Shown piece by piece: positions 11,805 to 32,700 of a DNA stretch of 64,000 nucleotides (position 1 is the first letter of the stretch; every line of letters begins with the position of its first letter). The notes under the pieces are model-generated. The model was not told where the DNA came from and searched no databases. It worked only from the letters and a program-made list of their open reading frames with translations. The stretch spans positions 44,422 through 108,421 of the IMG/VR virus record IMGVR_UViG_3300021130_000224; one strand, 5' to 3'. The position numbers were made by a program, and so were the translations under genes. The DNA comes from a virus.

Positions 11805-14800
11805 ATGCCAGGTACAGATCAGTTTGGATTTCCAACTTTGCCTAATATGGATAATTCTCAGAAAGATGCAAATCAAACACTTTCTGAAAACCAAAATAAT
11901 GTAGTAAACCCTGCGTTTGTCTTACCTTCTCTTACAAGGGAGTCAAAAAACTTGATACCGAATAAAAGTTCTGCAAGTGGGGTTTTTGATGACATAATGA
12001 AAACTGCAGAAACCCTTACAAGTAAAGGGCCTTCATTAACTGAGCTTACTACTAAAACTGCACAGGATGTTCCAAAAGAATACCGTACAGGTAAATTTCC
12101 TATGTATTATGGTCCAGAAACTGAAGATTTTTATGGTAAGTCTCAGGGTACCGGAGAAAAGTTATTGTATGGTGTAGGCAGAGGTATATCTTCAGGTTCA
12201 CGAGCATTTCTTCAATCTACAGTAGGACTGGTAAATGACATAGCATCTGTATCTACTGGTGGAAGCTTTACTGACAATAACTTAAACAAATGGTTTGATA
12301 CATGGCAAAAAGCAGATGATCTTGATATGCCTCTGTATCAAACAAAAGAAGAAAGAGATAGATCAGGTTGGGATCCAAGAGGTTGGGTAACTGGTAATAA
12401 TGTTGCTCACTTTATAGAAAGTTTGGGCTTTATGGCAGGTATGGCAGGTGGTGCATATGTTACTGCCGGTGCTGGAGAATTTGCCATAGGGGCAAGAGTA
12501 ACTGGATCCATAATGGCAGCATATGATGAAGCTATTGCTAGTTTCTCAGAATTAGCTGCTAAACAAGCTATATTAGTAGGAGTAGAGGATGGCGAAGTTG
12601 TAGCAAAGGCTTTGTCTCAACAGTTAATGAATGATGTAAAAGCTATTCAAGCAGAAGCTACAAGCGGTGCAGTAAAGCTTGATAAAGTAAATAAACTACT
12701 CAATGCAAGTAAAGCTGACCTTGATGCAAAATATGCAGCAAAGTTATTAGGTGCAGAAAAAATAAAGCAAACTATTTATGGTGGTATAGGTAATTTAGGT
12801 ATAGCATCTTCAGCAGGTTTTGAGGCAAAAGAACAGTTCAAACAGAACTACATTGACTCAATGCGTGAAAGAGGTTTTGAACTAACACCTGAAGAACTTC
12901 AAAAGCTTGAAGGTGTTTCTACAAGTGTTGCAAGATGGACAGCTACTGTTACAGGTGCACTGGGAGCTATTTCTTTTGGTCATGCATTTAAAGGAATTGT
13001 TGCAAAAGGAGAAGCCGAAACAGCAGTAAGAGAAGAAATAAATAATCTTGTAAACAAAGAAATACTTACTTCTGAAGAAATAGCTGCAAATAAAATAGCT
13101 AAAACTGCTACAGGGCCTCATATAGAAGGTAAAACAGAATACGTTGATCCTACACAAGCAACAAAGAAAGCAGATAACTTTATAGGAAAGGTTACTCAGA
13201 GTGCACGTAGAGTAGGTAAAGTTGCTGGACAAAATATTGGAAAAATATATGATCCATTTGGTGCTATTACAATGGCTGAGTTTTCAATGGTGTCACCTGC
13301 TATAGAAAACTATTTTTCAAAGCAATACCAAACAGGTGATGCTGACGTATGGGCAGATGCAATAGGTCCTAATCTTGAAAGAGTATTTGGTACAAAAGAA
13401 GGCATAGGAGAACTTATATCAGGTGGCCTTGCAAGTGGATTTTTCCAGGTGGGTGAAAACATAAAAACATCTGGAAAAAGGAAGAGTGCAACGGAAGCTG
13501 CAGCAAATGGAATGAATAAAACTTACATGGGCACTTACCTTAAAGATCTTACTCAGTCCATCAAGGTAGGTAGAGCATTTGATGAAGAAGAAAAAGATGC
13601 TATAATGTCCGGTGACAAAAAGAAACAGTATGACTCAAGAATGTCAAAACTGTTTGCATACATGTTACCAAGAGTAAAGCATGGTAAGTTAGAATACATT
13701 AAATCCGATATAAGAGGTTATCGTGAGCTTCTTGCTACTGATGAGGGCCGTAAACAATTACGTGCAAGTGGAGAATTGCCGGCAGAAGGTGATCTGGTAA
13801 AACAAGCAGAAGAGCTTAATCAACATCTTAATAAGATAGAAGCTTATGCTGAGAATGCAGATAAGACTTATAAAGCTCTTCGTTTAAACCATGGTTCCGA
13901 CCCAAGATTTAAAGATGAAGTTTTTGAAAAGTTGTTATATGCTTCTTCAATGATTGATAACGCATCCGAAAGAATCGTTAATATTTCAAAAGAACTTGAT
14001 ACCAATAAAGATATTACTCCTCAGATAAGAACTCAACTTGTTGAACTTCAAAAGTTAATGAGCAGACCTCTTACTGCAGAAGAATCATTTGAACTTCTTA
14101 AAAATCTTGGTGAATCAAGAGAAGAAATTATTAATAAACTTTCAGGTAGAAAGAATATTAGTGATCTTAGAAATAAGATAGTTTCTAACATAAAAGGTTT
14201 AAGTATTAATGAGACTAAGCAACAAGAGCTTATTGGTAAGATGGGTGATATGCTTAAATTAACCAATAGTAAAACTGGTTATTTAAAAGATTATCAGACA
14301 ATGATACTTAACCCTGAAATGGCTCATGATTTTAGTAGGAACAGCTTACCTGGTTTCCATGAAGAAATGCCCATGGGTAAAGGAGAAGGAGAAGAAGGTG
14401 GTCCGGAGAAACTTACAAAGACCATAAAAGTAAAACATGCAGGTAGTCCTTTTATACTAGGATCAGATGGTAAAAAGATATTTACCCCTTCTGACCTTGA
14501 GGTAGGTGAGGAGTATATAGGTGGTGTAAGAGAACTTTATGATGAATATAAAGGTGAGCCTACCAAAATGAAAAACTTCCCTAAATTCAGATTAGAAGGG
14601 GAGGTTGAAAAAGAAAGACAGACAAGTAAAGGTATTCTTAAAGAAAAGAAGATATTAATAAGTGTACCAGTAGGAGAGAATGGTGATAGAAGATACATGG
14701 AAATTGATCCCAAAGTATTTGAAAAGTATAAACTTACAAAACTTAAAGATCTTCAAAAAAATGAAGAGGCAATGTTCTATGTAAATCATGCAAATGATGT

Positions 14801-17800
14801 ATTTACATATGAATTTCAGAAAGGTAACTCTGATGCAATAAAAGATGGCATTATAACTTTTGATAAGGATAAAAATGTTTTAGCCTTCCGTTACAGAAGC
14901 AATGATGGCAAGGTAAGAGATCATGTTATTGATTTACAAAGAGCACTTGAAGAAGACAGACTAAAGTTTAAAGACAGTAAAAAAGAAATAAGTAAAGAAG
15001 AATATGATAGAATTAAAAACTATCGTGATCCTAACTATACAATGAAAGCTGCTCGTCAAATAGAAATAATTGATGAAGCTACTAAAGAGTACAGAACAGA
15101 ACTGGAAGAAGTTAAAGGTAGAATAAAAGAACGTGAAGATTTGCTTGGTCAACTTCAGGATACCATTGCTGGTATTCAGGAGAAAATGAAAAAACAAGGT
15201 ACTACTAAAAAATCTTTAACTCAGTACACAAAAGAACTTGTGTACATGCAGGAATTACATGATTCTTTACATGATGACCTTGAGCCATTGCTTGCAAGAA
15301 GGGAAGAACTGCAATCTCATTCTGACATAGTAGAAGGTTTAAAAAGTAATATACTTAACCATCCTAACGGTGTTGAGTTTATTGAATACTTGAAAAAATC
15401 TCAAGAGAACATAAAAGCTGAGAAAGAGAAAAACGATACTGCAATTGAGCATCTGAAAGGTCTTATTTCAAAAGCAAAAGATTTTATTGTCACTCTGAAA
15501 GATTCATTACTCAAGAGAATAGCAAAGTTTGAAGCAAGGTATCCGAGTGAAACACCAGGACGTATAGGAGAAATGTCTCAAAGTGAAGCTAATACTTTGT
15601 TGACAATACTAAGAGCTAATGAGTATGATTTCCCTAAAAAACAAGGTATTACCTATGACGATAGTTCTCTTTGGAAAGAAGAACAAATAGGTACTCAGAA
15701 TCCATCAAGGTTGACAGAGCAAACAAGAGCACTTAAAGAGTTCTTAGAAACAAACAGAGACTTCTTTAAAGATCGAGATGAAATACTAAAGGATACTAAT
15801 ATACTTGATGTTAAAGAAAATGAAATAGAAGCTAATGAAAAAGCTATTGCTGAATTATTAGCTGATAATAAGGAACTTGAAAAAGTCTTTAATATTCTCG
15901 ACAAGATAACTAAACAGTTTGAAGAAGAGTATAAGAGATGGAAAGAAGATGTTGTACTTACTCAAGCATACCGGGAATCACCAAGTGCACAAAGGGTTCT
16001 TAGAGAAATGCAAGCAGCAATGAATGCAAACTCTTTACCTATTGTCCCTACATCTTTACTTGATAAAGCTGTAAGGGCCGTGTTAAGAAAAATACCGTTT
16101 TTTAAAATGAAGGGTTTACAACGAAATCCTTTTGCTGATAGTATTATAGTTGATAGTACAAATAAAAATACTTCTTTTTATCAGCAACACAATAACTGGC
16201 CTGATAGAGAAAGAGATTTTACAGCTAATCTTACTAAATGGTCATTTAAGTTAAATGGCAGTAAGTTTGGTTTAGGTAGTGCTATAGAGCCTGATAATGT
16301 AAAGGTAATGGTAGTTAATACCGGCAACCAATCTGCTTTTGGTTTTGAAGGTTTTGTACCTGAGAGTTATCAGAGTTATGATAAATCAGAAACTATTTTC
16401 AACAAAGGAGAAAATAGAGATAACTCAAGAGCACAGGTAGCACTTGTTTATACATATCAAGATGAATCAGGTAGGACATTTACTATAGATAAAGATGGTA
16501 ATCTTTTATCTGAAATAAAACCGGGTGCAGAACAACATGATTTTGACAACATGGTGTTTACCTACCTTGATCACTCAAACCTTAAAAGAACAGGTGCATA
16601 TAGAGCAGGAGAGAGTAAATTTTATGATGCTGAAAGTTTTAGTCAAGATGAACTAAATGCTATTCAAGCAAGTGCTACATCAATGCGTAAAAAGCTTCTT
16701 GATCTAAATGGTCAATTGTTGCTTGATTTTGATGTAATGGGAGGTTTTATTAATAAACCTAAAGAACTGGATGAGGAAATTTCTGATGGTACGGAAGGTG
16801 ATGAAGAACCAAAGAAGAAGCCGGTAATTAACAGAAGTGTTACAGAAGTAGGTTTAATGTCTGATTCAGATCTAAGTAAGCCAAATATTCTTGCTGTAGC
16901 AACTGACGTAGATCCTGAAAACAATAAAGTAGCCAGAGTAGATGGAGAACTTATACCTACTGCTTTACCATTTTTAAGATTGAAATCTGGTAAACCGGTA
17001 ATACTTACAACTAATAGGTTTACAAAAGAGCAGGCTGAGAACATTTATAATGTTCTGAAAAAGATTGCTAATTCAATGTTCAGAGCATATGGTAAATCAG
17101 AAGGTTCTGCTGAAGAAGGTGCAGTTGATAGATTGAGAAATGTTTCTACTGGTAAAGAAATAAGTGCTATGTGGAGATACCTTTCTACAATATCTTATTT
17201 CCGTAGACCAGAAGAAGGAGAGACTCTTGACAGAAATCAATTCTACCTTGATGGAAAAGGTAATATTGTAATGGGTAAAACGTCATGGAAATTTGATCCT
17301 AAGACACTTAATGATCCCGAAGTAAAAGAAAAGATAATTACAATTATTGCCGGCTCTGACAAAATACCAGGCCTATTCCATAATGTGGATAGTCTTTCTT
17401 TACGTGAAAGAGGTACTGAACCTTTTGAAGAATACATTGTTGATGATAATGGTAATGTAAAAGAGGTTAGAACCTGGGAAACTTTAAATCATTGGTATCT
17501 ATCAGATAAATATCCTGATGGTACGGCAAGAAATAAATCAGAGAATGATAATAACATTCCTGTGACTATCAATGCAAATGTACCTTCTTCTACCGGTGAT
17601 GTTGCCATAGAAGGTCGTTACATTAAGGTAAGAGGTATTGGTGAAGAATACAAGCCTAAGATAAAGGAAAAGAAAACAGAACAGACTCACCCGAGTGCTG
17701 CACCCAAGCCAAAGGCTCCTGAACCTCAATCTGCTCAAGGTAAAACTGAACCAATAGAAGAGTTTTCTTTTGAACTAAATGGTAATAAATATCCAATAAC

Positions 17801-20800
17801 AGATGGTAAAATTGAAATAGTTCAAGATTATACTACTTATACTATTATCCCTAAAATAGAAGGCAATAATATAAAAATTGAAAATGCTCAATGGTCAATT
17901 AAAGATCCTAAAACAGGAGAAGTTAAAACAGCAGAAGCTAAAACAGCTTTAAAAGACGTATTTGAACAAAAACTTAAAGAGCAATATGCTGATCATTTAG
18001 CTAAACAAGCTGAAGCAAATAAACCTGCAGAACCTGTAGTTACTACTGATGTACCTGTATCGGATATAGAAGCTAGAAGAGCTGAGATAGAAATAAAAAT
18101 ACAGGAAAAATTAAAACAACTTGATGAAAGTGATAAAAGGTCATTAGAGGCAATAATGCCTAATAATCCTAATCATCCTACATTTAAAGTAGGCATGAGA
18201 TATAATGATGGCATGAGAGTAATTATTCAAAATGCTAAACCTTCAGATAATTTTGATGGTAGAGAAGATAGTTATATTGCAATTACTAAAATAATTGAAC
18301 CTGCTGAATATAGAGCTGATGGTAAAATGACTAAAGCTGCTAAAATTGAAACTACAATATTCAATACTAAAGAAGAAGCTGATAAAGCTATTGCAGATAC
18401 CTATGCCAAAATTCAAGCACAGGTAAAAGAAGGTAAACGTCAAAAAGATGCAAATGCTAAATTTGATACAGAACTTGCTGCTTTAGATAAAGAAGGTACA
18501 AGTACTACAGAAGAACCTCAAGTAATACCTGCTGAACCTCAAATAGAAACTAAATCAGGTAAGCCTGAAACTACAAGTAATGTTGTAGAAAGTGTTAGAG
18601 AAAAAGCACAAAGACTAAAAGACCAACTTAATGGCAATCCTCCTAATACAAGGATTGTACAACCTGGAGAAGTAGCTGTTAGTGATCACAAAGGACACGA
18701 AGAATTTATTACTTGGTTGAAAGATAAATTACCGGGTGTTAAGTATAATGAACTGCACGATGTTGTAAGAATAACAGGTGCTAAATCTGCATGGGGTATA
18801 GCGAAAGATCACATTATTAGTGTATTTAAAGATGCACCACTTAGTGCAAAATATCACGAAGCATTTCACCCTGTATTTGATGTGTTTCTTACTGACAGAG
18901 AAAAAGCTAATGTGATCAGAGAGTTTAAGAATAGACAAGGTAAGTTCTTTGATTTAGGTTCAGGTAAGTATATAAACTTTGCAGATGCTACTGTATATCA
19001 AATTGCAGATAGACTTGCTGAAGAGTTTGGTATATATAAGACTACCGGTAAAATGCCGGAATATACCCCTAAACAGCAGAATTTCTTTAAAAGATTGTGG
19101 GCAGCATTAACGAACATCTTCCGTACACCAACAACTATAGATAGTATCTTTAAAAAAGTAGATGAAGGTGGTTTTAGAAATACAGAACCATTACGTGAAA
19201 TAGGTATTAATAACTACAGTACTGTACAAGGATTAAGAAATAGATTTACTGAGCAGGAAATATCTGCCAATGTAAAAGGTATAGCACTTGAGATATACAG
19301 AAATCTTAGATTAGATACTGGTAAAATGCTTAAAACTCTTGAAGGTAAAACTACATTCAAGGAGTTAATTGATCCCATAAAAGAACTATTTAACTGGAGA
19401 TTTCATCTTGAAGATTCTGAAGCTAAATTTATGGAGAACGGTGTATTTACAATACATGCACCTGATTCTCCATTTGGTGATGTACAGAAAGATAGTTTAA
19501 CTCAAAATTGGCAAAATGTTCTTGATAACTGGGATGATTACATGTCAGAAGTAAAGTCTTTCCTTAAAACAAAGGGTATTGATTTTGTCAAGAAAGAAAT
19601 ATCAGGTGACCTTGAGGAAGGTGAATCTATTAAGGAATCTGCAGGTGAAGAAAGTAATAATAGAGATTATGCAGGTGACATATTTCAATCAGATGCAAAG
19701 AATAATTCTCCAAAAGAAATAAAGCTGATATTTGGTTTTGTTACTGAGGATGATTACGATAATGACCTTATAGCAAAAAGTAATTTCCGCTTACAGGAAA
19801 ATCCAAAACCTAAAATGAATGCTATTTCAGGTATGGATCAAATGTCAACCGATACTGATTACTTCTATGTTGTAATGAAGGAAATGGCAAATGTATCCGG
19901 CCTTGATGAGATGAAAAATAAATTCTTATCTCTTGCACAAAAAATACCTTCATTAGTAAGGCCTTACAAAGCTATATTTGGTGAACCTACTGCAAATAAT
20001 CAACCTACGGCAGAAATGCTTAGACTGCAGCACTTATTTGAAAAAACATTTAATAAGCAGGTTGTTACACCTTTCATGCAGAAGATCTCAGGCAAAGAAA
20101 GTAGTGCTACTATAAATTCAGATAGTGAACGTGATACACGTCAGATAGTAAATGATTTCTTGTCAAACATGACAGGTCTTCATATGAATACCGATATAGT
20201 ATCTATGGATCAACATGGTAACTATACCTTTAATACCAAAGTATTAAAAGATCCTACTCATAAAGATTTTATTCCTAATCCAAGAAATGGTCAGTTCCCT
20301 GAACAGAAAGAACAAATGTCTCTTGAGTTTTTGAATAAGATAGGTTTTAATTTTCCTAAAGAAGTATTTAATAAACTAAGTAAACAAGATAAAGAAAAGC
20401 TTACTAAAGAATCAATGAGACTTTATGATGAGCTTTATAGAGTAACTGCAAAAGGTTCAGGTGCACTTATATCAAGGTCAGGTATAACTACACCAGCAGT
20501 AGATAAAATAGCAGACATTTATCTTAAAGCTGAACGTGGTTTTAGATCAACTCAAAGATTTACAATAGATGGAGAACCTGCTCAAAGGTATGTTCTGCAT
20601 AATAATTTATCCCAAAATTTATCTGAGATCAATCAAGTTGAATCAAGGGAAAAACTTCTACAGGTTAAACCTTATTATGGTACAGATCCTTTCTGCCAAG
20701 AATCACTTCTTTTGAAAGAGAATGGTATGTGGTTTGCTGAAACTGAAACCAAAGGTGATACAAGGTATACACCATGGAAAGATAACTCTAAAATGCAGGT

Positions 20801-23800
20801 TACTGTAACAGAAGGTATTGATTCAAATGGTAAAAAGGTTGCAAATAAAAAAATGAATGCAGTTACCAGGTTCATGCAAGCAATGAATATGAACCTTTCA
20901 GGTAATTTCTACTTTGTAACATCTGCAGATAGTTCACAAGATTGGGGGGCAAGAACAGGTGAGACTGGTAAGTTTTATATTCCACCTTCTGTCTACAACA
21001 ACACTAAATACGTTGGTGATATTTTTGCCGGCTATTTAAGAGCTGAGATAGAAACAATCAAGGATTTTAATGTAAATCCTGAAAAGCAAAAGTGGGAGCA
21101 GCTTAATAAAAAAGTAGGTGGTAGTAAAATAGGAGAGCAACTTCGTTTCTTCAAAGGTCTTCTTTCTAAAGATGCTGTAAAAAAGGTAGAAGAATATGCA
21201 AATGGCAAAGGTCCAGATGCAGAGTTAAGTACTTCTGAATTTGTTAAAAAGATTCAGTCTGATGTAAATGAAGGCTTGAATAAATACATAAGTCAGCAAG
21301 TTGAAGATGCTAAAAAGATGTTGCAAAAAGCATCTATAATAGAGAAAGGTACTCAAGGTTATAGATGGTATGGTTTAAGCGAGAGAGTAAGAGATTTACT
21401 TAGTGCTGACCTTGAAAATAAGCTTGGTAGAAAAGAAAGACCCACCGGTGATTACAAGAAGGATAGAGATCTTCGTATTGTTTATAATGAGAAAGAAATA
21501 AACGATATTATTAAGTTTAGAACACTTAATCATCTTGCTCATGGTATTGAGATGAACAAAGTATTCTTTGGAGATCCTGCTATGTATAAAGATCCTTTTA
21601 AAAGAATGAAGCTGTTTATGTCAGGTAAAGACTTTACTCATACCGATAAAGGTATAGGTGTAAGTAATCTTGTGTTAGCTGATAAGTACAATAAAGTAGG
21701 TGCTCATACTTTAAAGAAAGGACAAGTAGGTTATCATGATTTTACTGATACTCTGAAAATATTTACTTATGACTTTGGTGATAGCCCAAGTACTAAAATT
21801 GCATCTGCAAACTGGAAAGAATTACCTGAAGCATATCAAAGTAATAATTCTATTGATGGTCAGTCTCATATAATGTTACCTTTCTACCGTGAACACAAGT
21901 TAAAGGAGGGTACATGGCCGGATGATAGAGAAGCTCAGTATCAGTATGATCTTGCTTTATTTAGAAGAGAGGCAACCAAGAGGTTTAATGCAGGGGAGAA
22001 GAAATTTGAGAAGTTTGCTTACAAAAATAATGAAGATGACAAAGCCCTAAAAGCTGAGGATGATAAACTGCTTGCTCAAGGTAATCCTAAGGTAGCAAAT
22101 GCATTTTATATTGATAAGCCACTTGCTGTAGGTATGTACCAATCACAATCAAGAATGGTACCATATGCACTTAAAACATCAACTCTTCCACTTTCTTGGG
22201 AACTTGTAAGAGGTAAGGCACTTGAAGATAAATACTTGATGATGCTGGAATCAGGTACTGCTTATAGTGGTCCTAAATCTCAGCAAAAATTTGGTATACC
22301 AGAAGGTGCACCTGAATTGTATAGTAAAGTAACAGGAAAGCTTGCTCTTACTGGTGAAATAATAAAAGCAAAACAATTACCTGTTAGTTGGTCAGACTGG
22401 GGTAAAATATTAGAAACATCAGGTGAGAAAGAAAAGATTACTCTTGGTTCTCAGGGTACTAAACTTGATCATCTCCATTTGTTTACAAGAGGTATACCTA
22501 ATGACTTTATGACAAATCTTTCTTATAAAGAAAGAAATGATCAATGGTCTAAACTTTCTCCAAAGGCCAAAATTGAAAAGAGCGAGTTTTATAAACTTTA
22601 TGACAATAAGAATAAAGCGTTAAGTGCACTTGCTTCTCATGGTCTTGAAGTAATAAAGGATGAAATAGGTATAAGTAAAAATGATGCCGGTGAATATGAA
22701 TTGATGGATGCTTCTAAACTTGTACATTTTCTTAACCAGGAAATTACCAGAAGAGAGTTACCTCAGAATATGAAGGATGCTTTAGGTGTATATTTAAACC
22801 CTAAGTCTGGTAAAATTGAGTTGACAAATGCTCTTGAAACACTTGCTAATTTCAATCAGATACGTTCTATCATAAACTCTCTTATCGACAAACATATTAA
22901 CTCACCTAAAGTGAATGGTAAAGCATTAATACTTGCTTCATCTGCAATGTTTGAAGATGCTTCAAAAGGACTAAGAGTTGAAAAAATAAATGGTAAAGAT
23001 GTACTTGTATCAGATCATCTTGAATTTTACCGTATAGGTAAAGATGGTAAACCTACTAGGAGAATGCAAGTAATGATGACCAACTTTATGTATAATGAGT
23101 TAAAGAAGAAATCTAAGCTTTCTGATGCTGAATTGATGAAATATCTGATGACAGAAGAAGGTAAAGAACTTTTGTATGGTATAGGTTTCCGTATTCCTAC
23201 TCAAGGTCTAAACTCTATAGATTCATTTGAAATAGTACCTTTTGATTTAAGGTATGATAAAGATGGACAAATAGATTACGAGAACAGTAAAATGTTTGTT
23301 CCTAATACATATGGTGACATGATGGTTGTTCCTGCAGAACTTACTACAAAAGCAGGTTCCGACTTTGACGTGGATAAATTGTTTAGTTATCTGAAGAACT
23401 TCTATATTGATGGTAAGGGTTACCCAAGACTTGTAAAGTTCTTAGATGAAAATAACTCTACTCCAGAAGAAAGATATGTTCGTTACGTTAAAGATAGTGC
23501 TGATAAGAAAACAAAAATTGCTATTAGTGCAGAACGTACTGAAGAAGATGACTATGAAAAAGAACAGTTCTTTGGTAAGTTAAAAGATGAAGTAAAACAA
23601 GCAAGAGAACTTGGTGTAAAGGATATTAAAGCTAATATCAAAGAACAAATCAATGACATTAGAAAACAGGCAATAGAGCAATCAGATAGTGTATTTGCAG
23701 AGCTTAGAGAGGTAGGTAAAAAACTGTATAGCAATTTAAGTGAGGAAGTACTTACTGAGTTTAAAGCTCTTGCTGCAGAAAACAAAACTAATAGTGTAAA

Positions 23801-26800
23801 AGGCCCGGCAGAGATAACTTCTTATTTTACTCTATCTTCTGTTCTACTTGAAAGAAGTGACCTTGATGAGAATGATAGAAATAGTCTTTTAAACATGAAC
23901 CATCTCTATCAGAAAGAACTTGAGCAATTAGGTTACAATCAGGAATGGATAGATGAAAGAAAGAAAGAGGTTATTGAAAAATATAAAGCAAGCAAAGAGC
24001 TTATTAATGCTAAAATAGGTGAGATCAGACAAGGTGAAGTTTCAGCATTCTTTGAAGCATTAAATAAGCTAAACAAAGAAGGTGAGTTTGACTTACATAA
24101 AAAGATAGCAGAAGCATCAGGTATTATGTCTTTTGAAGAATTTAATACAAAAAATATCTTTGAACAGAATACCAAAGAAGCTATTGAGAATAAGTATCAG
24201 CAAAACATACATGATATTGTAAGCCATCCTTATAATTTTGATAAGCTTGTTGAGCCCAATAGTGCAGAAGAGCTTAAATCTTTTGAAGCTAAACTTGAAG
24301 AAACTCGTAATTCTAAAAAGTCACAGAAAGAAAAAGATCTACTTGCTGAGGAAAAAGCACGTAAGAAATCAGGTAACGTAGATTACCTGGATACTATTGA
24401 CCCTATCAAGGTGTCAGAACAAAGGCAGGTAATGCTTACTGCAAAAAATCAAATAGGTATTGCTGCTCAGGCAAATACAGGTAACTCACTTGCACATAGT
24501 GCACCAGAGCCAATTGTTATTGATTCAAATGTACCATTGTCTTCACAGGATCTTAAAGAAATACCTGTAGATGCAAATGGTAATAAAGATTATTCAATAA
24601 AGCTTGCACACAATAGTGTAGAAAAAGATGGTAGAAAATTACCTACTATATCTGGAGGAGAAGTTAATCTTGGTAAGATATCCGGATTGATTTCACAAAT
24701 AATAGATGGTTCAGTGGATGCTGCAAATGATCCTTATTTGATGAGAGTATTCCCATCAAAGGATGCTGTATCAACTGCTGTTATGTTGACAAGGCTTGGT
24801 TGTGATATAGGTGATATAGTAATGTTCTTGAACCAACCTATTCTTAAAGAATTGTATTCTAAACAAGAAGCACTTGCAGCAAGAAGATTATTTGATCCTA
24901 CTTATAGGAAATCAAATGATACAATGCTTCAGAATGTTAAAGCACAATTTGGCAAAGGTAAACCTGTGTTTGTAGATAAAGTATTGTCTTTTGATATGTT
25001 ATCTGATATGATTGCTGAGTATGAAGTAAATCCTACCTTGAGAGGTAAAGATGAGTATTCTGCATATCAACGACTGATACTTGATGAATACAAGAAGTAT
25101 AAGCTTTACTCAGACCATCTGTTCCAATTCCAAATGGGTACTACCTGGGACGGTTTGGATAATCCTTCTCCTGCTTCTGTTTATTTAAAAAACAGAATAT
25201 TGGAGCAAACTAAATGGGGTAATGTATTTGGTGACGGTAATCAAATACTTAAAGATAGCTTTGTAAAGACCAGAAAAGAGACTGTGGAAGAAGGTGCTAA
25301 AGCACTTGAAAAAGTATACAAAAATACTTTTCCTTACATAAAGTCTATATGGGATGCATTTAGTAAACGTACCATTCGCATAGGCAATGATGCTAAGAGA
25401 GCAGCAATGGATAAAGCCAATATTTCATTTATTGATTACCTTACTCAGATAACTACATTACCAGGTGGTAAAACAATGAATGCATATATTGGTGAATTGT
25501 TCTTTAAAGATGATGTGTTTGCACAAGAGTTTAATAAAGCAAAAAGAGAAAATGCTAAAAAGAAAGGAACTCCTGAGTACAACATGGCTTTGAACATGCT
25601 AAGGTTAGATAGACAGATCTTCTCAAGGGATAGCAGAACACTTTCATTGAGAGAGAAATCTAAAGATGCTTCTATACAAAATATTCTTACTGACAGTTTC
25701 AGAGAACTGAAGCAAAGTAACCCCGCACTTTATGAGAAAATAGTTTTATTTGGCCATCTGCAGTCAGGTGTTACTGATACTAAACTGTCTTTCAATAAAT
25801 TTATACCTCACGAAGATTATAGTAAAGCTTTGATAAGAGGTATTGAACAACTTGATGGAGGTGATAAAACTATTCTTGAACAGTTTACTAAAACTAACCA
25901 GTTTTATAAAAACAACTGGATAAATGATGAGATAGTACCTTCTGTAGGTAGTTATCTTGAAGGTGAATATAGAGCAGATAATGTTTCTAATTCAGTAATT
26001 GTACTTCAGAAAGGTAAGTATGGATCTGAAAATCCTGCTGTCAAGGTAATGAGTAGACTGAACCCTACAACCGGCAAGTACTATACAGAAGCTGAAGAAG
26101 CTGATCTTGAAGGAAAAGGTTTTAGATTTAAACAAACACCTAAGCTATTCCGTAGAATAGAAACAGACAATGAACCATATACAGTTACTGATTCTAAAGG
26201 TAATGAGTACTATGTATTCAAACAGATAAATGCTTTAGGTGATGGTAATAATGTTCAGGAATACTATACCACAAATGAACCGTCAAAAAGAGATCTTCAT
26301 TTTAAAATAACAGAAGACTCAGATGATACGGTAATAGATGCTGTTGATAAGAGATACTCTGGTGGCAAGGTAACTAATGAGGAAGAAGATATGGATGATA
26401 CATTTGAATCAACATCTACTGTTGCAACACCTATAAATAGAGAGTTGTCAAACATAAAATTTGAAGAACATCCATCTACAAACTATGCAGACAGAACAAA
26501 AATAAATGCTTCTTCTGATGCAACTATAGCACTTGCTACAGACTTTACTTCTGCTGGAGAAAAAGCTACTAAAAATTCAGTAGAACAGCAAGGTAAAAAA
26601 TACATACCAATTGATTTGAATAAAGGTTTAGACGTTACTCAAGAAAGAGTTAACAAATTAGTACAGATGCTTAATGAGTCTGCAGGGAAAGATTTATTTG
26701 CTAAAAAAGAAATATCTCTAAACATTGCAGGTAATGGTATATATACTATGAAAGGTAGATATACACAAGAGCAAGTAGATGATTTTACATATCAATTACT

Positions 26801-27560
26801 CAAAAAAGCTATTGAATCCCCTGATCTTAAAGTTAAAATATCAAGTATTAATACAGGTGGTCAAACAGGTTTAGATGAAGCTGGTGCAAAAGCCGGATTA
26901 AAATTAGGAATACCAACAAAAATACTTGCACCAAAAGGTTGGAAATTCAGAGATATAAATGGTAATGATATTTCTGATGAAAAAAGATTTAAGGATAGAT
27001 TTAAAATGAGTATACCTGTATCTACAGAACGTACTACAGTAAAACCAAATACAAAAGGTGAGTATAATATTTATGCAGGTACCGGAGAAAATGTAGTTTT
27101 ATCAAATATGACACCAAGAAAGTTTATTTATAATGGTGGAGAATTTAATTCAGTAGAACAAGCATTTCAGGAAGCTAAACTTCAGTTTACAAAAGGTACT
27201 GAAAAAGATATTGCCACTCATAAAAAAATCAGTGAAGCAAAATCAGCTTTTGAGGCTAAAAAATATGGCAGAGAATACAGTACATTAGATGCAAAAGCTT
27301 GGGATGAAAATAGTAGTAAATTTATGAAGATGTTTATTAAATCATCTTTTGAACAAAATCCACAAGCACTTAAAGAATTGCTTGCTACTGGTGATGCTAA
27401 ACTTACACATAATCAAGATGCTGGTAAATGGGGTACTGAATTTCCAAAAATCCTTATGGAAGTAAGAGATGAATTTAAAGGTAAAACAACTGCAGAACCA
27501 GCAGTAGATGCAAGAGCAAAAAATAATGAAGAAGGTAATAAACCAAATCCAGCATGTTAG
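11805..27560 (+). CDS. Giant virion RNA polymerase polyprotein (RNAP + zincin + SLOG-like + NADAR)
   Basis: This 5251-aa protein is the largest in the window. N-terminal hydrophobic Gly/Ala-rich segments lie at about 195-240 and 380-405, and Lys/Glu-rich coiled-coil-like regions at about 590-800 and 1050-1400. HEAFH (H2351, E2352, H2355) followed by a Glu pair at 2406-2407 is a zincin-type metallopeptidase signature, perhaps for self-processing. GSDFDVDKL places the DxDxD metal-binding Asp triad (D3853, D3855, D3857), the hallmark of the single-chain double-psi beta-barrel RNAP of crAss-like phages. That enzyme is known to be packaged and ejected to transcribe early genes. At the C-terminus, residues about 4890-5050 look like a YpsA/molybdenum-carrier-type SLOG domain with motifs in permuted order (RT 4897-4898, DAT 4905, NIAG 4973, GGQTG 5018, PKG 5043). 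About 5087-5225 is a NADAR domain (LSN 5099-5101, SVEQAFQEAK 5116-5125, WG 5209-5210, LMEVR 5217-5221). The 3' end overlaps the peptidase gene by 7 bases. Confidence 0.85.
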   Translation: MPGTDQFGFPTLPNMDNSQKDANQTLSENQNNVVNPAFVLPSLTRESKNLIPNKSSASGVFDDIMKTAETLTSKGPSLTELTTKTAQDVPKEYRTGKFPMYYGPETEDFYGKSQGTGEKLLYGVGRGISSGSRAFLQSTVGLVNDIASVSTGGSFTDNNLNKWFDTWQKADDLDMPLYQTKEERDRSGWDPRGWVTGNNVAHFIESLGFMAGMAGGAYVTAGAGEFAIGARVTGSIMAAYDEAIASFSELAAKQAILVGVEDGEVVAKALSQQLMNDVKAIQAEATSGAVKLDKVNKLLNASKADLDAKYAAKLLGAEKIKQTIYGGIGNLGIASSAGFEAKEQFKQNYIDSMRERGFELTPEELQKLEGVSTSVARWTATVTGALGAISFGHAFKGIVAKGEAETAVREEINNLVNKEILTSEEIAANKIAKTATGPHIEGKTEYVDPTQATKKADNFIGKVTQSARRVGKVAGQNIGKIYDPFGAITMAEFSMVSPAIENYFSKQYQTGDADVWADAIGPNLERVFGTKEGIGELISGGLASGFFQVGENIKTSGKRKSATEAAANGMNKTYMGTYLKDLTQSIKVGRAFDEEEKDAIMSGDKKKQYDSRMSKLFAYMLPRVKHGKLEYIKSDIRGYRELLATDEGRKQLRASGELPAEGDLVKQAEELNQHLNKIEAYAENADKTYKALRLNHGSDPRFKDEVFEKLLYASSMIDNASERIVNISKELDTNKDITPQIRTQLVELQKLMSRPLTAEESFELLKNLGESREEIINKLSGRKNISDLRNKIVSNIKGLSINETKQQELIGKMGDMLKLTNSKTGYLKDYQTMILNPEMAHDFSRNSLPGFHEEMPMGKGEGEEGGPEKLTKTIKVKHAGSPFILGSDGKKIFTPSDLEVGEEYIGGVRELYDEYKGEPTKMKNFPKFRLEGEVEKERQTSKGILKEKKILISVPVGENGDRRYMEIDPKVFEKYKLTKLKDLQKNEEAMFYVNHANDVFTYEFQKGNSDAIKDGIITFDKDKNVLAFRYRSNDGKVRDHVIDLQRALEEDRLKFKDSKKEISKEEYDRIKNYRDPNYTMKAARQIEIIDEATKEYRTELEEVKGRIKEREDLLGQLQDTIAGIQEKMKKQGTTKKSLTQYTKELVYMQELHDSLHDDLEPLLARREELQSHSDIVEGLKSNILNHPNGVEFIEYLKKSQENIKAEKEKNDTAIEHLKGLISKAKDFIVTLKDSLLKRIAKFEARYPSETPGRIGEMSQSEANTLLTILRANEYDFPKKQGITYDDSSLWKEEQIGTQNPSRLTEQTRALKEFLETNRDFFKDRDEILKDTNILDVKENEIEANEKAIAELLADNKELEKVFNILDKITKQFEEEYKRWKEDVVLTQAYRESPSAQRVLREMQAAMNANSLPIVPTSLLDKAVRAVLRKIPFFKMKGLQRNPFADSIIVDSTNKNTSFYQQHNNWPDRERDFTANLTKWSFKLNGSKFGLGSAIEPDNVKVMVVNTGNQSAFGFEGFVPESYQSYDKSETIFNKGENRDNSRAQVALVYTYQDESGRTFTIDKDGNLLSEIKPGAEQHDFDNMVFTYLDHSNLKRTGAYRAGESKFYDAESFSQDELNAIQASATSMRKKLLDLNGQLLLDFDVMGGFINKPKELDEEISDGTEGDEEPKKKPVINRSVTEVGLMSDSDLSKPNILAVATDVDPENNKVARVDGELIPTALPFLRLKSGKPVILTTNRFTKEQAENIYNVLKKIANSMFRAYGKSEGSAEEGAVDRLRNVSTGKEISAMWRYLSTISYFRRPEEGETLDRNQFYLDGKGNIVMGKTSWKFDPKTLNDPEVKEKIITIIAGSDKIPGLFHNVDSLSLRERGTEPFEEYIVDDNGNVKEVRTWETLNHWYLSDKYPDGTARNKSENDNNIPVTINANVPSSTGDVAIEGRYIKVRGIGEEYKPKIKEKKTEQTHPSAAPKPKAPEPQSAQGKTEPIEEFSFELNGNKYPITDGKIEIVQDYTTYTIIPKIEGNNIKIENAQWSIKDPKTGEVKTAEAKTALKDVFEQKLKEQYADHLAKQAEANKPAEPVVTTDVPVSDIEARRAEIEIKIQEKLKQLDESDKRSLEAIMPNNPNHPTFKVGMRYNDGMRVIIQNAKPSDNFDGREDSYIAITKIIEPAEYRADGKMTKAAKIETTIFNTKEEADKAIADTYAKIQAQVKEGKRQKDANAKFDTELAALDKEGTSTTEEPQVIPAEPQIETKSGKPETTSNVVESVREKAQRLKDQLNGNPPNTRIVQPGEVAVSDHKGHEEFITWLKDKLPGVKYNELHDVVRITGAKSAWGIAKDHIISVFKDAPLSAKYHEAFHPVFDVFLTDREKANVIREFKNRQGKFFDLGSGKYINFADATVYQIADRLAEEFGIYKTTGKMPEYTPKQQNFFKRLWAALTNIFRTPTTIDSIFKKVDEGGFRNTEPLREIGINNYSTVQGLRNRFTEQEISANVKGIALEIYRNLRLDTGKMLKTLEGKTTFKELIDPIKELFNWRFHLEDSEAKFMENGVFTIHAPDSPFGDVQKDSLTQNWQNVLDNWDDYMSEVKSFLKTKGIDFVKKEISGDLEEGESIKESAGEESNNRDYAGDIFQSDAKNNSPKEIKLIFGFVTEDDYDNDLIAKSNFRLQENPKPKMNAISGMDQMSTDTDYFYVVMKEMANVSGLDEMKNKFLSLAQKIPSLVRPYKAIFGEPTANNQPTAEMLRLQHLFEKTFNKQVVTPFMQKISGKESSATINSDSERDTRQIVNDFLSNMTGLHMNTDIVSMDQHGNYTFNTKVLKDPTHKDFIPNPRNGQFPEQKEQMSLEFLNKIGFNFPKEVFNKLSKQDKEKLTKESMRLYDELYRVTAKGSGALISRSGITTPAVDKIADIYLKAERGFRSTQRFTIDGEPAQRYVLHNNLSQNLSEINQVESREKLLQVKPYYGTDPFCQESLLLKENGMWFAETETKGDTRYTPWKDNSKMQVTVTEGIDSNGKKVANKKMNAVTRFMQAMNMNLSGNFYFVTSADSSQDWGARTGETGKFYIPPSVYNNTKYVGDIFAGYLRAEIETIKDFNVNPEKQKWEQLNKKVGGSKIGEQLRFFKGLLSKDAVKKVEEYANGKGPDAELSTSEFVKKIQSDVNEGLNKYISQQVEDAKKMLQKASIIEKGTQGYRWYGLSERVRDLLSADLENKLGRKERPTGDYKKDRDLRIVYNEKEINDIIKFRTLNHLAHGIEMNKVFFGDPAMYKDPFKRMKLFMSGKDFTHTDKGIGVSNLVLADKYNKVGAHTLKKGQVGYHDFTDTLKIFTYDFGDSPSTKIASANWKELPEAYQSNNSIDGQSHIMLPFYREHKLKEGTWPDDREAQYQYDLALFRREATKRFNAGEKKFEKFAYKNNEDDKALKAEDDKLLAQGNPKVANAFYIDKPLAVGMYQSQSRMVPYALKTSTLPLSWELVRGKALEDKYLMMLESGTAYSGPKSQQKFGIPEGAPELYSKVTGKLALTGEIIKAKQLPVSWSDWGKILETSGEKEKITLGSQGTKLDHLHLFTRGIPNDFMTNLSYKERNDQWSKLSPKAKIEKSEFYKLYDNKNKALSALASHGLEVIKDEIGISKNDAGEYELMDASKLVHFLNQEITRRELPQNMKDALGVYLNPKSGKIELTNALETLANFNQIRSIINSLIDKHINSPKVNGKALILASSAMFEDASKGLRVEKINGKDVLVSDHLEFYRIGKDGKPTRRMQVMMTNFMYNELKKKSKLSDAELMKYLMTEEGKELLYGIGFRIPTQGLNSIDSFEIVPFDLRYDKDGQIDYENSKMFVPNTYGDMMVVPAELTTKAGSDFDVDKLFSYLKNFYIDGKGYPRLVKFLDENNSTPEERYVRYVKDSADKKTKIAISAERTEEDDYEKEQFFGKLKDEVKQARELGVKDIKANIKEQINDIRKQAIEQSDSVFAELREVGKKLYSNLSEEVLTEFKALAAENKTNSVKGPAEITSYFTLSSVLLERSDLDENDRNSLLNMNHLYQKELEQLGYNQEWIDERKKEVIEKYKASKELINAKIGEIRQGEVSAFFEALNKLNKEGEFDLHKKIAEASGIMSFEEFNTKNIFEQNTKEAIENKYQQNIHDIVSHPYNFDKLVEPNSAEELKSFEAKLEETRNSKKSQKEKDLLAEEKARKKSGNVDYLDTIDPIKVSEQRQVMLTAKNQIGIAAQANTGNSLAHSAPEPIVIDSNVPLSSQDLKEIPVDANGNKDYSIKLAHNSVEKDGRKLPTISGGEVNLGKISGLISQIIDGSVDAANDPYLMRVFPSKDAVSTAVMLTRLGCDIGDIVMFLNQPILKELYSKQEALAARRLFDPTYRKSNDTMLQNVKAQFGKGKPVFVDKVLSFDMLSDMIAEYEVNPTLRGKDEYSAYQRLILDEYKKYKLYSDHLFQFQMGTTWDGLDNPSPASVYLKNRILEQTKWGNVFGDGNQILKDSFVKTRKETVEEGAKALEKVYKNTFPYIKSIWDAFSKRTIRIGNDAKRAAMDKANISFIDYLTQITTLPGGKTMNAYIGELFFKDDVFAQEFNKAKRENAKKKGTPEYNMALNMLRLDRQIFSRDSRTLSLREKSKDASIQNILTDSFRELKQSNPALYEKIVLFGHLQSGVTDTKLSFNKFIPHEDYSKALIRGIEQLDGGDKTILEQFTKTNQFYKNNWINDEIVPSVGSYLEGEYRADNVSNSVIVLQKGKYGSENPAVKVMSRLNPTTGKYYTEAEEADLEGKGFRFKQTPKLFRRIETDNEPYTVTDSKGNEYYVFKQINALGDGNNVQEYYTTNEPSKRDLHFKITEDSDDTVIDAVDKRYSGGKVTNEEEDMDDTFESTSTVATPINRELSNIKFEEHPSTNYADRTKINASSDATIALATDFTSAGEKATKNSVEQQGKKYIPIDLNKGLDVTQERVNKLVQMLNESAGKDLFAKKEISLNIAGNGIYTMKGRYTQEQVDDFTYQLLKKAIESPDLKVKISSINTGGQTGLDEAGAKAGLKLGIPTKILAPKGWKFRDINGNDISDEKRFKDRFKMSIPVSTERTTVKPNTKGEYNIYAGTGENVVLSNMTPRKFIYNGGEFNSVEQAFQEAKLQFTKGTEKDIATHKKISEAKSAFEAKKYGREYSTLDAKAWDENSSKFMKMFIKSSFEQNPQALKELLATGDAKLTHNQDAGKWGTEFPKILMEVRDEFKGKTTAEPAVDARAKNNEEGNKPNPAC

Positions 27561-29791: not shown

Positions 29792-32700
29792 ATGGCAATC
29801 TGGGGTACTGACTGTGGCCGGGTAAAACTTTCCGGTAAAATGATCAAATCTGTTTCTGCTAAAAACGGAAATGAATCAAAATTGTATAAAGATATATTAG
29901 AACAGCTTGATACTTTACCAAAAGAAGAAGTTGATCAGCTCAGAAAATCTTTTAAAGATTGGGAAGGGGATATTGTAGGAGATGTTGATAACAAGCGACA
30001 TCTGGCTTTAGCATTATATGCTAAAACAAATAGTCCAAATTTTAAAAATGAGTTCAAAGGACAATTTGATAACAACAATGAACCTGTGTCAAAAGATGCA
30101 TTAGATATTCTTTTAAAGAAAAATGAAGAACTACAAGAACAAAAAGTAGAATCAGAGGATATATATAAACAACTGCCTACAGAAAAGGAGGAAACAAAAC
30201 CATCAAAAGCATCTGAAGTAACAGTTGATGAGTTTAAAGAATTTTTGAAACGTGCAGGTATACCATTGAATGAAATGGTTAAAGGTAGGGTTGATGAAAA
30301 TGGTAATCCTATTACTCCTGAAAATGCTGCTTATATTTCGGAAAGACTTGTAAATGTTATTGATGGTGAACAAGCAACAGCATTACCAGAAGAGGCATCT
30401 CACCATGCTGTTCAGTATATAAAAATACATGACCCTAAGTTATTCAAAGCAATGATGAATAAGGTGGGTAATTATAATTTATATGGAGAGATTGCTGAAC
30501 AGTACAAAAATGATTCTGCTTATAAATTAGAAGATGGTAAACCAAATATTCCAAAAATCAAGGAAGAAACCTTAACAAGGTTATTTGTTGAGAATGTTAT
30601 TAAAATTAAAGAAGGTAGTACTGAAAAACCGGAACTTGTTGCACAAACTCAAACTTGGTGGAAACAAGTAATTGAATCATTACGTAGCTTCTTTAATACC
30701 GGTTCTTTTGATCCGTTCAGAAAAGCAGCAAAACAATTTGTTGAAAAAGAAGGTGCTTTTTCAGATGAGAATGTAAAAAACAAAGTTGATCAATTAAAAG
30801 ATTGGAAATCAAGTGAAAACTTTAAAGACTTTTCTACAAACACAATAGAAAACTTTAAGGGTGTTGTTGAACAAGTACCTGATCATACTGCTATTGTTAC
30901 TCATGGTACTGTAATATCATTACTTAAAACCTGGAAGGATAATAAATACCAGGATGGAGAAGTATCAATGGATGTTTTCCAAAAACAAGAAATTAACAAT
31001 GGTCACATTGAAGAGATAGATTATAACGGTAAAAAGATATTTCTTGTTCGTCATGGTGAATCAGAAGCAAATGTTGATGATGTAGAATCAACTGATAATA
31101 CCCCTCTTACCCAAAAAGGTAAAGAAGATGCAATGAAGGTTGCTCAAGAGCTTCGTGATAAAGGTATTGTCAAAATTGTATCTACTGAAACAGACAGGAC
31201 AAAAGGAACTGCAGAAATTATCAGAAAAGAATTAGGACTCTCTGACAAGTTTGCTCAGGTAGATAAACAGAAAGCTACTTTTGATGCTATTGTTGCAACT
31301 CTTAATAAGATCAAAAAAGAAGTTACTGCTGATGAGAACTACTACTTAAATGTAGAAAAGAATAAAAAGGTTCAGAATAGAATAACCGATAGAGCACAAC
31401 GTATAGTAGATGCTGCTTTTGGCGACAGAGAAATAAGTGAAGAACAGCGTAAAGAATGGGATCAAAAAGCTGCTACAGGTAGTGCAGGTCATGATGATAT
31501 TGCTAATATCTTCTCAAGGTATATTGATAAAACAACCGGTTTTGTAAGAAAGAAAAATGGTCAGTTTGCACCATTAGATATGGAGGGTTACGTTTCTAAA
31601 ATAAACCCAGATAACGATGATTATTATAGCATGCTTGAAAAGATGATGCGAGATGTCATTAGTGAATACCCTGAAAATACCAGGTTTATATGGGAAACAC
31701 CTATTTATAATGAACTTACTGATGAAGCAGGTACTCCTGACTTTCTTGCTATTCTTCCTGATGGTACTGTAGACAATCTTGACTGGAAGTTTCTTGATAT
31801 TAAGGATAATGTAAAGGATATAGCCAAATATAAAAAGAAAGCATTCAATGTTCAAATGAAAGGCTATGCCGAAATACTTCGTAATTCTTATGGTGTAGAA
31901 AAAATAGGTAGAAGCAGAATCATGCCTATACAAGCAAAGTACAAATTTGATGACATTACAGGTCAAAAAATATTTGCCGGCATAGAGATTGCCAATAGTG
32001 AAGACAACTATAAAGGGGAAAAAAGAGACTATCTTATTCCTCTCCCATCTGAAGTAGAAACAGTAAGAGAAAACTCAGAAATACAAGATCAAGTTGAGAA
32101 AATGAATAAACTTCTTGATCAGCTTTCTAAACAGAAAAAAGAAGAAATTAGCGAAGACAAAAAAAGAACTTATGAGCAAAGAATTGCAGAGGTTATGAAA
32201 GCAATTCGTTATGCTCAGGTAAAAAAAGATGCAACATCTGCAGTAGAATCTATTAGTGGTTACCTAAATGAAATAGGCCCTAAGTTTAAAGAATACATGA
32301 AGATATTTGAAGAAGGTAAGGAGTCTCAATATACACTTAGTGACTTAAATAGAATGGCAGATGAAGTGTACCGTTCTTATGAATATCTTGCTCCTTTTTA
32401 CAACCTTGAGCACGTATATAAAGATCCGGAAACAAAAGCAATGCTTTATGATCTATCTTACAGAATAAGTGAGGCAGGTAAATATATGGATAAACTAAGT
32501 GCTTTACTTATAGAAAAAGGTGTAGCAAATAGATTTAATCTTTTTGGTGTAGCAGGTACTGATCCTATGACAGGTAAACCATTTGCTGACCAATTAGTAA
32601 GTTGGGGTAAAAAGCTTTGGACTACAAGTGCTAATGCAAAAACAAGAGCCGGTCAATTATTTCATCATGTAAGAGATTTGGTTTATCAAAAATCAACTTT

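Follow-up and report, generated by a model that had tools for sequence, protein, structure and literature searches.

A circularly permuted SLOG domain in a third strand-block order at the C-terminus of a crAss-like phage RNA-polymerase polyprotein

Introduction

Near its C-terminus, a giant phage protein carries all the motifs of a YpsA-like SLOG domain in an unfamiliar order, raising the questions of whether these are the parts of one rearranged domain, where the rearrangement took place and what such a domain may do beside a viral RNA polymerase (RNAP). The locus lies in a 64,000-nucleotide stretch of DNA, referred to here as the window, which covers positions 44422-108421 of the 108,421-base virus record IMGVR_UViG_3300021130_000224.

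Results and discussion

The domain lies at the end of an RNA-polymerase polyprotein

The whole finding is contained in one uninterrupted open reading frame (ORF) of 5251 amino acid (AA) residues (Table 1). YADRT (residues 4894-4898), DATIAL (4905), NIAG (4973), GGQTG (5018) and PKGW (5043) each occur there once, exactly where the first-pass annotation had placed them. The patterns Y..RT..N..D.T and GGQTG.D.A were found in none of 2000 shuffles of the protein, while the short NIAG-type motif appeared in 39 of 2000. At the C-terminus, Pfam recognised a NADAR domain (PF08719) preceded by cpYpsA (PF12694), the latter matched in two stretches, and the SLOG domain was delimited to residues 4879-5065.

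Upstream, a stretch homologous to RNAP (22782-24284) includes the motif DFDVD, which would be catalytic by analogy with the known vRNAP motif. The identity of this region rests on tblastn matches of the ORF centre to the 'putative RNAP catalytic subunit' of Bacteroides phage crAss002 and to a crAssphage RNAP fusion protein (E 5e-11 to 3e-10). A sequence search of the region against the PDB gave nothing useful, and a scan of viral contigs with the RNAP motif region gave no confirmed relatives.

Table 1. Features of the polyprotein ORF, in window coordinates
Feature	Coordinates	Strand	Basis
RNA-polymerase polyprotein ORF, crAss-like, 5251 AA, SLOG domain C-terminal	11805..27560	+	open frame; RNAP homology of centre
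DFDVD (residues 3853-3857), putative catalytic DxDxD motif of the RNA polymerase	23361..23375	+	motif scan
Permuted SLOG domain, strand-block order 4-5-1-2-3	26439..26999	+	AlphaFold, rotation scan, alignments
Block 4, YADRTKIN...DATIAL; Y, R, T, N, T invariant	26484..26534	+	alignment, motif scan
GExxT loop after strand 4; domain residues G40, E41, T44 (GTxxT in conventional cpYpsA)	26556..26570	+	alignment
Strand 5, YIPIDL	26598..26615	+	DSSP of model
Block 1, strand 1 and LNIAGNG loop; N, A, G invariant	26709..26738	+	model, alignment
Block 2, strand 2 and GGQTGLD; invariant G144, D146 form the GxD/E substrate-binding signature	26835..26876	+	alignment, model; motif role PMC6459960
Block 3, strand 3 and PKGW	26916..26942	+	model, motif scan
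NADAR domain directly after SLOG; E5118, K5125 fit catalytic Glu/Lys spacing	27087..27443	+	PF08719 E 3e-14; 8bau, 2b3w matches

The strand blocks run in a third circular order

The window domain is a single YpsA-like SLOG domain, circularly permuted so that its blocks run 4-5-1-2-3, a third circular order beside those of YpsA (1-2-3-4-5) and cpYpsA (2-3-4-5-1). The order of YpsA is one that we take from the Pfam name of cpYpsA and from general knowledge rather than from an alignment. Pfam names PF12694 "circularly permutated YpsA", that is, cpYpsA is already a rotation of YpsA; the order GGQTG, PKG, YxxRTxxN/DxT, LNVAG, ascribed beforehand to YpsA-type proteins in general, thus holds for bacterial cpYpsA, where it was found (L069-L072, L153-L182 and L184-L202), and not for YpsA itself.

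PF12694 matched the window with 36-41 bits (cut-off 26.2), in two separate stretches rather than one collinear match. A profile built from 49 native-order cpYpsA proteins was then rotated stepwise through every cut point. In native order the window scored 36.0 bits. A single optimum of 59.7 bits, covering nearly the full length, came at native position 48, where the cut directly precedes the YxxRTxxN block; the same profile rotated to the YpsA order scored 32.8 bits. The relatives from Vibrio phage ICP1 and Pseudomonas gave the identical optimum, and a native cpYpsA control scored highest at zero rotation, in a comparison whose conventional cpYpsA set had been selected using the permuted profile. 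In hhalign, permuted positions 6-121 aligned to conventional positions 53-155 only. PF06908 (YpsA) had no match in the window region at E up to 1, and a search of one genome with this profile returned no canonical YpsA.

Structural modelling gave the same picture. AlphaFold, with a 76-row alignment, predicted one compact domain (mean pLDDT 96.1, pTM 0.91) with a five-strand Rossmannoid core, the strands assigned by DSSP (28-33, 54-59, 91-98, 133-139 and 160-164) following in the expected order. Both this core and the GxD/E signature of the YpsA-like SLOG group are present, G144 and D146 being invariant in 76 sequences. The best PDB match of the model was 3imk, aligned between model residues 3-126 and chain residues 49-157 (Z 8.7, rmsd 2.9, 106 residues), whereas for the model of a conventional cpYpsA (L069), which also matches DprA and ShosA, the alignment with 3imk spanned 153 residues from one end to the other (Z 23.5, rmsd 1.9). 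Such a partial versus end-to-end match is what is expected of a circular permutation with an order-dependent aligner. The protein now starts and ends between blocks 3 and 4, and a longer loop and a helix, placed between block 1 and block 2, connect what were the termini of cpYpsA.

The permuted motif order read from the sequence by the first-pass annotation is thus borne out by the rotation scan, the AlphaFold model and the native-order control alike, which, with the two-stretch PF12694 match and the partial 3imk alignment, led us to file the domain as a permuted sister of cpYpsA rather than as cpYpsA. An unpermuted full SLOG domain in another register was ruled out by the rotation scan and the structure model. 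Compared with cpYpsA (PF12694 and 3imk, a 'putative molybdenum carrier protein'), blocks 4-5-1 align in both sequence and structure, whereas blocks 2-3 are N-terminal there and C-terminal in the window domain. YpsA proper (PF06908, B. subtilis YpsA, PDB 2NX2) shares the GxD/E signature and the SLOG Rossmannoid core (PMC6459960), and differs in block order and in the absent Pfam match.

The permuted family resides largely in mobile elements

The 4-5-1-2-3 order was fixed in 85 of 85 non-redundant permuted homologues, about half of which are encoded by ORFs of <260 AA; many are stand-alone genes of ~180 AA, as in ICP1 and in Pseudomonas and Burkholderia phages. The same order was also found in the crAss-like phages cr10_1 and PhiCrAssBcn, in further Vibrio phages, in IMG/VR contigs and in some bacterial assemblies. 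The ICP1 copy, 179 AA in length, overlaps the end of helA, which encodes a Dda-like helicase, and a viral-contig scan with it as query returned only a near-identical ICP1 copy. Among Pseudomonas/Stutzerimonas plasmid records, tblastn gave any match in 108 and one match over >=80% of the query in 69, the latter likewise suggesting stand-alone genes; these copies are annotated as hypothetical or 'putative molybdenum carrier protein' (for example NZ_CP013125.1, 112907-113476).

On chromosomes, PF12694 matched 53 of 398 Pseudomonadota genomes, nearly all as full-profile matches in native order with few fragments, and a full-length permuted match was present in one of 296 Bacteroidota genomes, the seed genome, the other matches being out-of-order pieces. 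Judging by these surveys, the permuted form seems for the most part restricted to mobile elements, with chromosomes carrying the conventional order; some of the assembly matches may be phage or plasmid contigs, for which neighbouring genes were only partly informative.

The family is already clustered in PHROGs v4 as phrog_10774, of unknown function, which matches the window domain collinearly (profile 2-163 of 179, E 2.5e-26), the ICP1 protein over 1-179, and the Vibrio and Pseudomonas proteins likewise collinearly. The cluster is unnamed, and about half of its members in our set are stand-alone genes without an RNA polymerase fusion. In the openly accessible papers searched, no description of a phage YpsA/SLOG domain in 4-5-1-2-3 order was found, and the permutation is undescribed to that extent; the domain's fold and likely role, by contrast, place it in a network already known.

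Pocket residues are retained in the new order

The two orders have the pocket motifs in common, YxxRTxxN, DxT, G(E/T)xxT, NxAG and GGQTGxD, and residues R19, T20, N23, G40, T44, N95, A97, G98, G140, Q142, G144 and D146 are 94-100% conserved across the permuted and conventional sets. Others are fixed in the permuted clade specifically, namely the Glu of GExxT (E41, 98%), N99, Q110 and R171, so that GTxxT and NVAGP of cpYpsA correspond to GExxT and NIAGN here. Comparison of the window copy with that of L073 gave dN 0.20 and dS 1.8, the latter near saturation, indicating purifying selection.

NADAR and other ADP-ribose enzymes are recurrent partners

In the NADAR domain of the window, the E and K of SVEQAFQEAK are seven residues apart, as in 8bau, in keeping with the catalytic Glu/Lys pair of NADARs (PMC11543638). 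NADARs remove ADP-ribose from guanine, reversing guanine ADP-ribosylation (PMC11543638, PMC11125620). NADAR follows SLOG in the window and directly precedes it in four proteins of other phages (L075, L078, L100 and L103); Vibrio phages 1.121.O and RYC as well as L138 have it as a gene of its own close to the SLOG gene. Most stand-alone loci gave no NADAR match within the retrieved flank, a result obtained with a probably insensitive profile. The link between SLOG and NADAR is therefore recurrent, not general. In phage RYC, the gene adjoining the SLOG gene (L044, 1055-1504) is annotated as 'GTP cyclohydrolase II' and matches the NADAR profile.

DUF4326 is paired with permuted SLOG in L054. A 1024-AA protein from a Cryptobacteroides assembly (L061, 847-3918) combines ADP-ribosylglycohydrolase, DUF488 and permuted SLOG, and L117 and L123, two phage proteins of ~340 AA, join the domain to a 5'-deoxyribonucleotidase, NT5C; L119 and L124 are of similar length and group with these two in the tree.

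A possible role in handling ADP-ribose-type nucleotides

Taken as a pattern of sequence associations, both the fusion partners and the neighbouring genes suggest ADP-ribose chemistry, and the domain probably helps invading elements to deal with NAD/ADP-ribose-based bacterial defences. We propose that a cpYpsA-like ancestor was permuted once, in a stand-alone gene of mobile elements, that its nucleotide pocket was rebuilt from the same conserved residues in the new order, and that giant phage proteins acquired the permuted domain later, probably on several occasions. One of them, the crAss-like virion RNA-polymerase polyprotein of the window, carries it C-terminally together with NADAR. There its likely job would be to bind or cleave ADP-ribose-type nucleotides, the candidate ligands being NAD-derived immune signals or the products released by NADAR from ADP-ribosylated guanine. 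RNAP-associated proteins of crAss001 were identified as virion cargo by mass spectrometry (PMC10172136); by analogy, the SLOG-NADAR module may be packaged and injected together with the polymerase, reaching the cell at the start of infection.

This reading as a whole, which takes in a third-order SLOG domain permuted once as a stand-alone gene and appended later, its ADP-ribose-type ligands and its delivery with the polymerase, is our preferred one, held with somewhat better than even confidence. The wider proposal that a mobile-element SLOG topology, made once, was repeatedly fused to virion RNAPs and that SLOG-NADAR thereby pre-empts NAD-based immunity is offered as a tentative one, more apt to fail in some part than to hold entire. 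The preferred reading fits the viral SLOG and NADAR/Macro proteins which Iyer et al. 2022 (PMC9503650) predicted to process or counter ADPr signals, the window having SLOG and NADAR in one phage protein. That survey describes SLOG and NADAR of viruses as typically encoded on their own, whereas they are fused here, and in the passages searched it mentions neither a permuted topology nor crAss-like phages.

The strongest alternative is that the domain cleaves nothing and acts as a sensor or sponge, binding ADP-ribose-type ligands to regulate or protect the polymerase, a contender that we take seriously while giving it less than an even chance. YpsA-like SLOG proteins include binders, SLOG domains of bacterial immunity act as sensors (PMC9503650), and GxD/E has been described as the substrate-binding signature of the YpsA-like group (PMC6459960). 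The fusion partners, however, are mostly hydrolases, and the glutamate of GExxT, nearly fixed in the permuted clade, could be catalytic, although neither point is decisive.

A purely metabolic function with no role in immunity, namely nucleotide salvage or damage control in phages and plasmids, is unlikely. The NT5C fusion of some members and the location of stand-alone genes among replication and repair genes, such as those for a Dda-like helicase and DNA ligase, would suit such a function, but the repeated pairing with NADAR, ADP-ribosylglycohydrolase and DUF4326 speaks for ADP-ribose chemistry, and the family is nearly restricted to mobile elements.

On our preferred reading, a candidate anti-immunity domain can be named in ICP1, a phage much studied in the laboratory, and in crAss-like gut phages, and the 'putative molybdenum carrier' annotations in phages are accounted for.

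The permutation probably preceded residence in polyproteins

For phylogenetic analysis, conventional proteins were rotated in silico to the permuted register. The conventional and permuted sets separated in a tree of 134 proteins, and in one of 76 proteins the split received 100/98 support; when the conventional proteins served to root the bootstrap trees, 999 of 1000 had the permuted proteins as a monophyletic clade. Its deep branches are mostly stand-alone genes, in unrelated phages and bacteria. Parsimony, with ORF length classes as states, some IMG/VR ORFs being cut by contig ends yet already long, reconstructed a stand-alone permuted ancestor in 1000 of 1000 bootstrap trees. The polyprotein state changed at least three times on well-supported branches, where gains and losses may be mixed. 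Together, the trees and the stand-alone ancestor indicate one permutation before entry into polyproteins; residence in polyproteins was probably acquired later, several times.

The first-pass annotation had instead placed the event inside polyproteins, suggesting that during their growth the outer halves of a tandem duplicate were lost. An apparently permuted histidine phosphatase in the neighbouring polyprotein and whole-domain insertions within the SLOG domain of such polyproteins would be in its favour, but stand-alone genes of unrelated phages have the identical order and the ancestor was reconstructed as stand-alone throughout, so that an origin in polyprotein growth is not supported and we regard it as very improbable. 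Duplication and trimming as such is a plausible generic route, of which no tandem-duplicate intermediate was seen, and a possible one within a stand-alone gene. That no SLOG domain exists and short motifs fell together by chance, conceivable for any single motif given its shortness, is refuted by the shuffles, the family alignment, the structure prediction and the 3imk match, and its likelihood is negligible.

With one early permutation as the preferred reading, the family provides a clear instance of a fold that underwent permutation twice and still kept its active-site residues, and since the event is largely confined to mobile elements its evolutionary route is open to study.

Other rearranged and inserted domains

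In L115 (4668-5090) and L146, an insert of ~110 AA interrupts the permuted SLOG domain between strands 5 and 1; it is macro-like by eye, with no Pfam match. At the same loop, L112 (4332-5084, on a contig shared with L034) has an RNase H-like domain with a weak Pfam match, split over two frames, which may reflect an intron, a frameshift or an assembly error.

In the next large polyprotein of the window (ORF 29792-35299), a histidine phosphatase has its THG block (30899-30907) before its RHG block (31049-31057). The RHGES block matched positions 1-69 of the profile (E 9e-19) and stands after the THG block, whose match to the second half of the profile (positions 106-159, E 0.0095) was below the cut-off. 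Going by this block order, the phosphatase also looks permuted, and the earlier view of it as a second permuted enzyme in a neighbouring polyprotein appears right.
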